32,509 bases of DNA from Methylococcaceae bacterium (GTDB lineage: Bacteria > Pseudomonadota > Gammaproteobacteria > Methylococcales > Methylococcaceae): NCBI GenBank assembly GCA_028711365.1, contig JAQTSI010000013.1, positions 1-32,509 on the forward strand. The letters run 5' to 3'. Numbering within the stretch: position 1 is the stretch's first letter; each line of letters starts with the position of its first letter. A program made the translations under genes and the position numbers. Shown here in pieces: positions 210-9,483 of this stretch. The notes beneath the pieces are model-generated. The model was given only the letters and a program-made list of their open reading frames with translations. It ran no database searches and was not told where the DNA came from.

Positions 210-659
210 TCAGCGCTGCCAGCAATCCGCAACGGTTCCGCCGGAACCCTGGACGCCTGCCTGGGTCAGGGTATAGGTGCCGCAGGCATCACCGGTCATG
301 GAACCGGTTGGTGCGGCGGACAAAGTGAAACATTGTCCCAGGGTGCAGGCACCCGCGGCGGGATAGGTCACGGTGATATCGTATTTGGCCGTTCCGGATT
401 TGGGGGAATGGGTATAAGGCAAGACGATATCGGCTGCTGCACTGTCTTTATCGAAGCGGTTGGCGACCGTGAAGTTTCGCTCCAGGAACTGGGCGGTTTC
501 CAGCAGAATGGCCTTGGCTTCGGAACGATTGGCCCGTCGAACGTATTCCATATAGGAAGGGTAGGCGATGGTGGCGATGATGCCCACTATCGCCACCGCG
601 ACCATCAAATCGATCAGCGTGAAACCACGGGTCTTGGTTCTTGCCGCCAATGGTGCCAA
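210..659 (-). CDS. pilE: Type IV minor pilin PilE
   Basis: Minor pilin of the type IV pilus, processed at the inner membrane by PilD and incorporated in the pilus or its initiation complex. The prepilin signal is TKTRG|FTLIDLMVAVAIVGI, followed by AYPSYMEYVRRANRSEAKA as in PilE proteins. Mature length would be about 137 residues with a C-terminal Cys pair (CGTYTL...DCWQR). Position 5 of the mature protein is Asp instead of the nearly invariant Glu. No ATG lies near the leader. The in-frame TTG codons at 659 and 650 would give 12- or 9-residue leaders; I use 659. The same frame stays open without a stop back to an ATG at 1466 that has a good GAGGAAA Shine-Dalgarno, through repeat DNA, so the true start is uncertain. 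It is last in the pil operon and ends at a terminator. Confidence 0.82.
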   Translation of the reverse strand: MAPLAARTKTRGFTLIDLMVAVAIVGIIATIAYPSYMEYVRRANRSEAKAILLETAQFLERNFTVANRFDKDSAAADIVLPYTHSPKSGTAKYDITVTYPAAGACTLGQCFTLSAAPTGSMTGDACGTYTLTQAGVQGSGGTVADCWQR

Positions 660-691
660 ACCAAGATTTTCTACCCCTTCCCCCTGACAGG

Positions 692-870
692 CATGGGTAT
701 CTACACAAGTCTGAAAGTGTAATGAAATCAACTCCTTCCCCCTTGCAGGGGGAAGGGTGGGATGGGGGTAGAGATTCGCTGAACCCTGAAGCGTCGCCGT
801 CTCATCGGCGTTCAACCCCCACCCTAACCCTCCCCCTGCCAGGGGGAGGGGATTTGTGTAGATACCCATG
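692..870. repeat. Palindromic MITE-like element, copy I
   Basis: It is bounded by CATGGGTATCTACACAA (692-708) and its exact reverse complement (854-870); weaker matching extends outward to about 681 and 881. Between the ends lie a CCTTCCCCCTTGCAGGGGGAAGG palindrome region (about 734-756) and a second G/C-rich palindrome (about 828-851). Its right 62 bases (804-865) are identical to 1275-1336 in copy II. It has no coding capacity of its own, consistent with a non-autonomous miniature element. Confidence 0.8.
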
Positions 871-899
871 CCCTGACAGGGGCAAGGATGGGACACTAT

Positions 900-1056
900 T
901 GTTGAATTAGGGCTTTTGCTCGTCTTTCGGGCAAGGATTGCCGGAGCCCAGACATTCGGGATGATTTGCGGAGTAACGTCCCCTTCGGCCCGGCTCAGGA
1001 CAGGCTTGTCGACTGGATACCGGCGATCCATGCCGGTATGACGGCTTAATTCAACA
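900..1056. repeat. Inverted-repeat element with TGTTGAATTA ends, copy 1
   Basis: The ends TGTTGAATTA (900-909) and TAATTCAACA (1047-1056) are exact inverses. The inside carries the CCGGCGATCCATGCCGGTATGACGG type of hairpin common in dispersed proteobacterial repeats. It matches 7296-7428 over nearly its whole length, except for about 24 extra bases around 985-1010 (a CCTTCGGCCCGGCTCAGGAC-type insert). It lies between palindromic copies I and II. Confidence 0.8.
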
Positions 1057-1140
1057 GCATTGGAAGGGGGGAATGGGGGGAGACGCAAATTGAAACTTGG
1101 AGGCATCGCCGTGTCATCAGCGTTCAACCCTCCCCCAGCC

Positions 1141-1344
1141 AGGCAAAGGTATCTACACAAGTCTGAAAGTGCAAGAAATTCAACCCCTTCCCCCTTGCAG
1201 GGGGAAGGAGCGAAGCGAAAGGGGCCTTGGGATGGGGGTAGAAGCTTGCCGAAACCCAGAAGCGGCGCCGCATGATCGGCGTTCAACCCCCACCCTAACC
1301 CTCCCCCTGCCAGGGGGAGGGGATTTGTGTAGATACATTTGCCT
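1141..1344. repeat. Palindromic MITE-like element, copy II
   Basis: The ends are AGGCAAAGGTATCTACACAA (1141-1160) and TTGTGTAGATACATTTGCCT (1325-1344), inverse at 18 of 20 bases. The internal structure follows copy I, with an additional AGCGAAGCGAAAGGGGC segment near 1208-1225. The right half is identical to copy I over 62 bases. Confidence 0.8.
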
Positions 1345-1399
1345 TCCAGAGGGAAGGGGCTCGAAACTGCAATCGGGATGTTCACCGGGATTTTCCGGT

Positions 1400-1429
1400 G
1401 GACCATGGCGATACCGCGAGCCATGGTCC
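1400..1429. other. 10-bp perfect hairpin downstream of pilY1
   Basis: GGACCATGGC (1400-1409) and GCCATGGTCC (1420-1429) pair perfectly around a 10-nt loop. It lies 61 bases past the pilY1 stop. No T run follows on either strand, so it is not a classic terminator. An RNA-processing or stability role is possible. Confidence 0.55.
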
Positions 1430-1490
1430 GGCCTATGAACGCCGCCTTTTTGAATAAGGACCTCATCGCCTGTTTCCTCGATTCATGTCG

Positions 1491-6152: not shown

Positions 6153-7559
6153 TCAATTCACCCGGTTGCGCAAGGTAAAGGTGGTTTCACTGATTTGGTA
6201 GAGCCTGTAGTCGGCGGCAGTGGTAGAGCTGACGGTCGTGTCGCGGGGGGCTTTGTACCAATTATAGGCCTGATGCGGCGTCACGATATTGTCTTCGGGC
6301 GAGCGCAACAGCAAGGAAACCCTCGCCGCCACCACGTTGTCCCATTGGCCATCGTTTTGTACCCCTTCCGCCGTTTTGTAACTATCGGCGGCGGTGTCGC
6401 CGTTGGTGTCCACGCCATAGAGGATCTGCATGTCTTGCACGCCTTCGACCATTTCCTGGGCGTCAGCGGTGCCCTCCTTGCGATAGAGCGAGGGCTGGCC
6501 CGCCGGGTTGTTGCGGATGTAGTAGGCCTTGGTGGAAATTTTCATGATTTCCCCGCCTTCGAAATTTTTGCCCAAGGTCTTGGTGGCGTTCCCAGGTATC
6601 ATGCCGCCAAGGTTGCCGGTGTTGTGCACCTCATTGTCAAACCCGCCGGCGGTATTGGAGTTGGTAATCTGGAAGATGGCCGCCGCCAGACAATCGGTCA
6701 CCATCACGATGTCGCCGGCTTCAAGGTCGCTGTTGGCCGTCACCTTGAGATCGGCCGAGCCCGGGTCGAGCCCGCCGGGTTGCTGCAGCACCCGGATTCC
6801 TGAGCCGAAGGCGCCGCGCAGTACCACGATGTCCCGCCCGCCCAAGGGGCTGACGATGCTGGCGTCCAAGGGCACGACGTTCCAGCTACTGGCGGTGGTG
6901 GCCTCGTAGCCGTAAATTGGCTGGTTGAAGTTCCAGAGGAAATCGGAGGCGCTATTCAACGTATTGACGGTATTCGTGGCGCTGCCGGCACAGCCCCGAT
7001 AACCGGCCATGCGCAGATCGCGCCCCATGATTTCGAAGGCATAGCGGGTATTTTCCTGGATGCGGGCCATGGCATCGGAACTGCGGTAAGCTTGGCGGCT
7101 GCTGAGATAAATACCCAGGGCGGCCGCGGTGAGCACAAGGCTCAAGGTGAGTGCGACCATGATTTCCACCAGCGAGAGGCCACGCTGCGAGGAAGCGATT
7201 GAAATTCGCTCTGGCAATGCCGCTGAGTTCTTGAGGGCCGCCCCCCAGGCAGGCTTGGGTATCGACACAAGTCCCCTCCCCCTGGCAGGCAATGTTGTTG
7301 AATTAGGGCTTTTGCCCGTTGTTCCGGCAGGGAACGCCGGAATCCAGACGCTCGGGATGACTGGCGGAGTAACGTCCCTGTCGACTGGATACCGGCAATC
7401 CATGCCGGTATGACGGCTTAATTCAACAGTACTGCCTGCCAAGGGGAGGGGACTTGTGTAGATAATATTGCCTGCCACAGGAAGGGGACTTCTACTCCTG
7501 CTTTGCCAGGAAGAAGGGGCGGAAAGGCTTGAGTCGGCAGAGGGGATCGAAGTTTTCAT
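6153..7559 (-). CDS. pilW: Type IV pilus minor pilin PilW with repeat-extended leader
   Basis: Minor pilin PilW. The signal is SSQRG|LSLVEIMVALTLSLVLTA with the expected Glu at mature position 5, followed by SSRQAYRSSDAMARIQENTRYAFEIMGRDLRMAGYRGC, typical of PilW. The mature part is 341 aa. The ATG at 7559 overlaps the pilV stop (TTATGA), which looks like the ancestral coupled start. However, residues about 30-100 are encoded by the palindromic element at 7259-7465 and the element nested in it, so the leader would be 127 residues. An in-frame TTG at 7217 gives a 13-residue leader and may be the working start. No frame break is present. Confidence 0.85.
   Translation of the reverse strand: MKTSIPSADSSLSAPSSWQSRSRSPLPVAGNIIYTSPLPLAGSTVELSRHTGMDCRYPVDRDVTPPVIPSVWIPAFPAGTTGKSPNSTTLPARGRGLVSIPKPAWGAALKNSAALPERISIASSQRGLSLVEIMVALTLSLVLTAAALGIYLSSRQAYRSSDAMARIQENTRYAFEIMGRDLRMAGYRGCAGSATNTVNTLNSASDFLWNFNQPIYGYEATTASSWNVVPLDASIVSPLGGRDIVVLRGAFGSGIRVLQQPGGLDPGSADLKVTANSDLEAGDIVMVTDCLAAAIFQITNSNTAGGFDNEVHNTGNLGGMIPGNATKTLGKNFEGGEIMKISTKAYYIRNNPAGQPSLYRKEGTADAQEMVEGVQDMQILYGVDTNGDTAADSYKTAEGVQNDGQWDNVVAARVSLLLRSPEDNIVTPHQAYNWYKAPRDTTVSSTTAADYRLYQISETTFTLRNRVN
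7259..7465. repeat. Palindromic MITE-like element, copy III, split by a nested element
   Basis: GTATCGACACAAGTCCCCTC on the left (from 7259) matches the inverse of GGGGACTTGTGTAGATAA on the right (to 7465). These arms of about 35 bases are interrupted by the TGTTGAATTA-ended element at 7296-7428. This shows one repeat inserted into, or carried in the loop of, the other. Confidence 0.75.
7296..7428. repeat. Inverted-repeat element with TGTTGAATTA ends, copy 2
   Basis: Same ends as the copy at 900-1056 (7296-7305 and 7419-7428). It is 133 bp, shorter by about 24 bases because the CGGCTCAGGAC-type insert is absent. The interior has GGAACGCCGGAATCCAG and CCATGCCGGTATGACGG hairpin halves. It lies in the same relation to the pilW frame as copy 1 does to pilE. 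Confidence 0.8.
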
Positions 7560-8797: not shown

Positions 8798-8847
8798 AGG
8801 TCTTTTGCGGAAATCTTGCAACAACATCAATTTCTTAAGCGAAGTCC

Positions 8848-9246
8848 AGGTCGGGAGCTGCGAAGGCCAGCTCGGGAGCTGCGAAGGGCAGCTCGGAAGC
8901 TGCAAAGGCCAGCTCGGGAGTTGCAAAGGCCAGCTCGGGAGTTGCGAAGGCCTGCTCGGGAGTTGCAAAGGCCAGCTCGGGAGCTGCGAAGGCCAGCTCG
9001 GGAGCTGCAAAGGCCAGCTCGGGAGCTGCAAAGACCAGCTCGGGAGCTGCAAAGGCCAGCTCGGGAGCTGCAAAGACCAGCTTGGAAGCTGCGAAGGCCA
9101 GTTCGGGAGTTGCAAAGGCCAGCTCGGGAGCTGCGAAGGGCAGCTCGAGAGCTGCGAAGGTAAGCTCGGGAGCTGCGAAGACCAGCTTGGAAGCTGCGAA
9201 GGCCAGTTCGGGAACTGCAAAGACCAGCTCGGGAGCTGCGAAGACC
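8848..9246. repeat. Tandem array of 19 units of 21 bp, each a potential hairpin
   Basis: Nineteen contiguous 21-base units run without a spacer. The core of each is GAGCTG, seven bases, CAGCTC, i.e. a 6-bp stem. Units differ by 0-5 substitutions, mainly GCG/GCA, GGC/GAC and GCT/GTT changes, and never by indels. Because 21 is a multiple of three and the units lack stops, long ORFs appear in all six frames. None has a convincing start with a ribosome site. In the plus frame reading SSGAAKA the two commonest changes are synonymous, but that frame has a stop at 8836-8838 and no start before TTG 9082. I therefore call it a non-coding or pseudogenic array. 9247-9483 shows nothing further. Confidence 0.9.
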
Positions 9247-9483
9247 AGGTCGAGGCCAGCGGAGAGCAGCTTGAAGGCCATGCAATAGAAAAGATGTTGC
9301 TTGATAAGGGCCTACGGTAGAAGCCTCGATGACAGGGGCATGGGAAAAAAGCGGGGGTTTCCCTCCTCGATCGGGAAAATGTTTTAACGATGAGTGAAGT
9401 TGGGGGGGCAGAAAAAGCTCATACCGGGATCGTCATCATCCGCAGCGCTTGCCCAGAAAATAAAACGAGCTACATTCCACAAT

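Follow-up and report, generated by a model that had tools for sequence, protein, structure and literature searches.

Frame-restricted palindromic repeats in the leaders of pilus genes: a mobile element probably tolerated as a translated linker in a probable methanotroph lineage

The pil operon and its extended leaders

The window, a stretch of 32,509 nucleotides, lies on contig C212; the draft genome to which it belongs measures 4.77 Mb in 454 contigs. On its minus strand it carries a minor-pilin operon with a GspH-like gene, pilV, pilW, pilX, pilY1, and a pilE/ComP-like gene. The leaders of pilW and of the pilE-like gene contain repeats of two kinds, here called A and B. The features of the two genes are, by coordinates in the window:

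210..1466, minus strand: pilE-like ORF (418 aa) whose leader, about 280 residues long, is mostly repeats
843..864, plus strand: B repeat arm in the pilE leader (22-bp pattern match)
894..1062, minus strand: 169-bp variant of element A in the pilE leader, in the same reading phase as the pilW copy, with 4 mismatches in its duplication
1314..1335, plus strand: second B repeat arm in the pilE leader (22-bp pattern match)
6153..7559, minus strand: pilW, 468 aa, with a 127-residue leader, cleavage after Gly127, and then the minor pilin domain
7176..7181, minus strand: prepilin cleavage site Gly127 / Leu128 (G^LSLVE), from the translation, with G127 invariant in alignment A1
7248..7289, minus strand: B 3' arm, containing GGGGGAGGGG and GTG 7268 (inverted pair I1, pattern match)
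7266..7268, minus strand: candidate internal start GTG, giving a 30-aa leader, MSIPKPAWGAALKNSAALPERISIASSQRG; Shine-Dalgarno dG -11.8, against a random 1% level of -9.8
7290..7434, minus strand: element A, a probable MITE of 145 bp nested within the B arms and read as STVELSRHTGMDCRYPVDRDVTPPVIPSVWIPAFPAGTTGKSPNSTTL; its 11-bp target duplication is degraded, with 7 mismatches
7435..7476, minus strand: B 5' arm of the hairpin that encloses A (inverted pair I1; 22-bp pattern match at 7443-7464)

The pilW reading frame opens with ATG 7559, which overlaps the pilV stop as ATGA, and continues without a stop through 127 codons to Gly127 (ORF list and translation). Its product matches PF16074 (PilW; E=7.6e-26) and, at residues 123-148, PF07963 (N_methyl; E=2.1e-5). 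In the predicted structure, residues 1-125 are disordered (pLDDT <50), while a helix (130-183) and the beta domain are formed; we note that the overall confidence of this model is modest (mean pLDDT 56.9). The leaders of class III (type IV) prepilins are cut by PilD. The prepilins of the window resemble this class in having the G^XSLVE site and the N_methyl domain, but they differ in leader length, with 127 residues in pilW and about 280 in pilE compared with 12-18 in the nearest relatives. In two of these, G020 and G030 (69-70% identity), pilW has the same overlap with pilV and an 18-aa leader, as judged from ORF coordinates. The pilE gene of G020 lies directly after pilY1, and its leader is MITPIIRTETKG, compared with the roughly 280 residues in the window. 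Element A was absent from the pil operon of both G020 and G030, the two near relatives compared.

Within the pilW leader, the stretch from the ATG to the cleavage glycine holds two inverted arms (7248-7305 and 7419-7476; 58 nt, 83% complementary; inverted pair I1). The original prediction had placed nested palindromic repeats without a stop between the pilV-coupled ATG and Gly127, and the open reading frame and the mapped arms and element bear this out. Its statement that pilE and pilW are read in the same frame also held, as the 169-bp version of A in pilE has the same phase.

Both repeats are dispersed in the source genome. A 30-bp pattern for A had 36 genome matches and none for a reversed control, and the 22-bp pattern for B had 55 matches compared with none for its control. 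The B arm in pilW has TCG at a position where 46 of the 55 B matches keep TAG (counted by eye on the pattern listing), a change that is required for read-through and for a start at GTG 7268 alike. More than half of the A copies (20 out of 37) adjoin a AGGGTTAGGGT-like site, a site found beside B-type arms. Neither copy in the window is among these 20, and the pilW copy lies within a B hairpin. Just upstream of the pil operon, the window also holds a 21-bp tandem repeat array (8843-9258; CAGCTCGGGAGCTGCGAAGGC-like) in which both strands have long open frames.

Element A as a mobile element and its reading frame

The ends of element A are terminal inverted repeats (TIRs), CAATATTGTTGAATTAAG, with 89 matches at <=3 mismatches compared with 2 in a reversed control. 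In the stretches fetched from the source genome, we counted 37 distinct TIR-paired copies, after one double (L116 = L210) was removed from an initial 38. An 11-bp target duplication was exact in 16 of 36 testable copies and had <=1 mismatch in 22 of 36, compared with none in shifted controls. Together, the TIRs and the target duplications mark A as a mobile element, probably a non-autonomous one (MITE). The TIR list contained no obvious long pair that could represent an autonomous partner for an element that itself measures 145 bp.

Of the six possible reading frames, the consensus of A and its two copies in the window each leave just one free of stops. This frame (f1) was open in all 19 copies of 145 bp, and the corresponding copy-level P of 0.001 refers to copies that are not independent, since they belong to subfamilies of common descent. 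Insertion size is likewise constrained. With the duplication, the 145-bp form adds 156 bp (145+11), or 52 codons, the 163-bp form adds 58 codons, and the 169-bp form adds 60; the 145-, 163-, 169-, and 175-bp forms all give whole codons once the 11-bp duplication is included. A 179-bp form (L107, L133, L139, L140) does not give a multiple of three with the duplication; it has four TIR-paired copies, none of them seen in genes.

The phase shared by pilW and pilE follows from this restriction, because a copy within an intact ORF can be read in no other way. The original prediction had taken the shared frame of two insertions in one operon as non-random; with one frame in six open, and open in 19 out of 19 copies, the frame is forced, and the coincidence loses its weight. 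The same phase recurs across in-gene copies. Among 16 in-gene ORFs examined, 13 contained a TIR-bounded element (eleven of 145 bp, one of 163 bp, and one of 169 bp), and all 13 were in the same phase; the other three had no usable element (none at L203 and L206, a spurious one at L205). The duplication was exact or had <=2 mismatches in five of these 13 elements and had 4 to 9 mismatches in eight.

Copies within genes of the source genome and its relatives

In the source genome, 7 of the 37 copies of A lie in frame within genes, two lie in genes otherwise, and 28 were not assigned to a gene. We note that coding was scored with a simple codon model that had the fetched stretches as its training set, rather than with a gene caller, and that "intergenic" here means that no gene was assigned. 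The in-frame hosts are pilW, pilE, hypF (with A between the zinc finger, zf-HYPF, and the YrdC domain of HypF), a gene for a TPR protein, a GH30 enzyme (at its C-terminal end), a glycosyltransferase (carrying a 175-bp variant), and a signal-peptide protein with no Pfam match, in which A lies inside the signal peptide. A further 175-bp variant, with an exact 11-bp duplication, splits a CMD-family (carboxymuconolactone-decarboxylase) gene (L209:2491-3234), and one copy lies at the 3' end of a weak SnoaL-like ORF.

Seven in-frame copies among nine in genes correspond to P=9.4e-5 with one open frame in six and to P=0.0083 with two, values that are too optimistic because broken genes decay, become hard to recognize, and escape the count, which makes the excess of in-frame copies look larger than it is. 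When the same seven copies were set against 20, the values were P=0.037 (one frame open) and P=0.52 (two). Composite repeats outside genes have open frames of 150-240 aa, so openness by itself is no proof of translation. The original prediction had weighed a frame bias in genes against a mainly intergenic distribution, and the genome-wide search gave it a divided answer: most of the 37 copies lie outside recognizable genes, which counts against it, and the copies in genes are biased in frame (7 versus 2), which counts in its favor.

In the signal-peptide protein (L145:2138-3142), the signal peptide is lipoprotein-like, and A occupies its n-region and is itself enclosed by another short palindromic repeat. 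At L135:2914-3711, an ORF downstream of an A copy contains degenerate NDLAxLQNDLAxMQN repeats, perhaps another translated array.

Copies in relatives were found in two ways. A peptide search, whose design favors the open frame, detected A in long ORFs of G001, G002, G004, G005, and G006, and all ten such ORFs submitted to Pfam had domains. These hosts were cysteinyl-tRNA synthetase (CysRS), a type I restriction R subunit (HsdR), penicillin amidase, a serine beta-lactamase-like protein, a contractile-injection tape-measure protein, a glycosyltransferase, two STAND ATPases, an FGE-domain protein, and a haem-oxygenase-like protein. In a sample found by DNA, a TIR pair was present at 16 of 60 loci, a low number that reflects diverged ends in many relatives. 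Frame f1 was open in 13 of these 16, and two of the 16 pairs lay within genes, both glycosyltransferases and both in frame. The 44 loci lacking a TIR pair were left out of this count, and they include four known in-gene copies (L260, L262, L274, L277).

The strongest case is cysS of G005. This gene has a single match in its genome, on a 24-kb contig, and A lies in frame between the catalytic and DALR domains. In G000-G004, cysS is one uninterrupted ORF each, with no A insert at the G005 site; no match was found in G006 among the 150 of 221 candidates scored. Since CysRS is essential and a second copy was not found in G005, the gene arrangement implies that the cell translates the insert and tolerates it. 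The original prediction had offered tolerance as translated linkers as one possibility, and the in-frame copies in unrelated genes, including this only cysS match, speak for it. By eye, the same CysRS linker holds other hairpin-like repeats in G004, G002, G003, and G001 (L221-L224), such as GCGGGTTCCGAACCCGC or C-runs that lead into G-runs. The impression is of a site where translated repeats have landed more than once.

As to the organisms involved, PF02461 (methane/ammonia monooxygenase family) is encoded in 42 of the 61 genomes searched, which comprised the source and relatives to order level, and was not found in the source draft. On this basis we read the lineage as probable gammaproteobacterial methanotrophs.

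Interpretation and comparison with translated MITEs

We propose, with a probability of about 0.8, that A is a selfish repeat whose translated product the cell tolerates as a linker in the least harmful places, namely cleaved leaders, domain linkers, and tails. Transposition would duplicate 11 bp of target, so that the 145-bp form and its duplication would amount to 52 codons. A copy landing in a gene would then make a 52-residue in-frame addition in one case of six and a disruption otherwise, and selection on the host gene would retain the in-frame insertions. Host function may act as the filter, and PilD-cleaved leaders, interdomain linkers, and C-terminal tails would pass it. In pilW, B would have been the first to insert, landing between the ATG coupled to pilV and the cleavage site, and A would later have jumped into B. 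Ribosomes starting at ATG 7559 would translate across both repeats, and PilD would cut off the whole hydrophilic leader and leave mature PilW unaltered, presumably with no benefit from the insertion. Because the coupled ATG is conserved, read-through is the simpler main route for pilW, and internal initiation at the B-derived GTG 7268 may supplement it. Counting against this proposal are the degraded duplication of the pilW copy (7 mismatches) and the 4 to 9 mismatches in eight of the 13 in-gene elements, the open frames outside genes, the lack of any sign of selection on the A-encoded peptide, the under-counting of broken genes, and the internal starts, which could make the upstream part dispensable.

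A possible but less probable reading makes B a portable ribosome-binding site with a start codon. PilW would be made mainly from GTG 7268 and PilE from TTG 731 or 659, the upstream repeat would mostly be bypassed, and the part upstream of the internal starts could be dispensable. GTG 7268 has the strongest Shine-Dalgarno pairing among seven in-frame pilW candidates, and the codon after it is TCG, where most B copies have TAG. The pilE candidates have dG values of -10.5 (TTG 731) and -7.7 (TTG 659), and at L145 a repeat-derived GTG (dG -9.2) stands just before the hydrophobic core. However, the outer ATG at L145 is equally strong (dG -9.3), and more distant pilE TTGs, at 1286 and 815, are as good or better (dG -11.4), which suggests that energy alone is unspecific in purine-rich repeats. 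ATG 7559 is also conserved and all 127 codons are open, which internal initiation would not need, and the inserts in hypF, the TPR gene, and cysS lie mid-protein, where a start serves nothing. Element A was rejected as a source of starts, as its in-frame ATG 7403 has a Shine-Dalgarno dG of only -0.6. The original suggestion that the repeats bring their own initiation signals therefore fails for A and is plausible for B. A more elaborate scheme, which we regard as improbable, has A and B cooperating to build coding sequence in a free-living lineage: B would bring a ribosome site with GTG or TTG near gene starts, A would jump into B as a frame-neutral 52-codon cassette, and the two would jointly and repeatedly extend cleavable N-termini and linkers between domains or take their place, with the cysS linker as a recurrent landing site.

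We consider it quite unlikely that the repeats are ordinary extragenic palindromes, with the long ORFs being chance readings of repeats poor in stops and the true starts of pilW and pilE lying downstream. Most A copies do lie outside recognizable genes, and composite repeats there are open for 150-240 aa, but this would leave unexplained the in-frame copies in hypF, cysS, hsdR, and penicillin amidase, as well as the ATGA coupling conserved upstream of the pilW repeat. An adaptive leader, for example one that tunes pilus assembly or mRNA stability, seems very improbable. Two of the 37 TIR-paired copies do fall in one operon of ~8.4 kb, compared with about 0.065 expected from genome density (a post hoc comparison). 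Yet a test for purifying selection on the A-encoded peptide showed no sign of it (46 non-synonymous changes compared with 39.2 expected; 1 stop compared with 1.7 expected), which counts against an adaptive role, as do the predicted disorder of the leader, the presence of A in unrelated genes, and its absence from the pil operon of the two near relatives compared. Least probable of all is an artefact of draft assembly: several A copies do lie at contig ends, as where repeats break assemblies, but pilW and pilE sit inside one 32.5-kb contig, the G005 cysS copy sits inside a 24-kb contig, and all 13 resolved in-gene elements share one phase.

Tolerated translated linkers would extend a phenomenon known chiefly from Rickettsia, Wolbachia, Neisseria, and enterics to probable free-living methanotrophs. 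Our literature search, which covered few subscription journals, found no publication on a translated repeat of the A type in methanotrophs. With several A-bearing genes and near relatives that have empty sites, the frequency with which selfish DNA turns into protein, and the positions that tolerate it, become directly testable. The repeats also carry a warning for annotation, as the start sites of the pilW- and pilE-like genes are ambiguous here.

The closest parallel by description is the Rickettsia palindromic elements (RPE), reportedly the subject of Ogata et al. in 2000 and 2002. As described in portions of PMC10969869 and PMC2229807, RPE are translated palindromic repeats fused in frame in conserved genes and also found outside genes. 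By those descriptions they resemble A in their size of about 100-150 bp, their palindromic ends, the one frame fused in conserved genes, and copies both in and outside genes. They differ in target duplication, listed as "?" for RPE in PMC2229807 and clear at 11 bp for A. A differs further in its probable gammaproteobacterial methanotroph hosts, its length of 3n by way of the duplication, and its copies in putatively cleaved N-terminal leaders. In-frame translated MITEs are also described in Yersinia, in sections of PMC10969869, PMC2229807, and PMC2759123, and PMC2229807 mentions Wolbachia in its references. The enterobacterial RU-1/ERIC and RU-2/YPAL are, in the relevant parts of PMC2759123 and PMC2229807, likewise MITEs with ORFs fused in frame, and RU-2 contributes to the predicted signal peptide of YPO1552. 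They differ in length (127 and 168 bp), and RU-2 helps to form a signal, whereas A lies before or inside an existing one. For the Neisseria Correia/NEMIS elements, PMC2229807 describes, in the part concerned, a short form with open frames that is fused to ORFs and a long, stop-rich form that, but for one exception, lies outside genes; the 179-bp form of A, which departs from the 3n rule, is likewise unseen in genes, as compared by description. The A family joins these known translated MITEs, and its own traits are clear 11-bp duplications and insertions in leaders.
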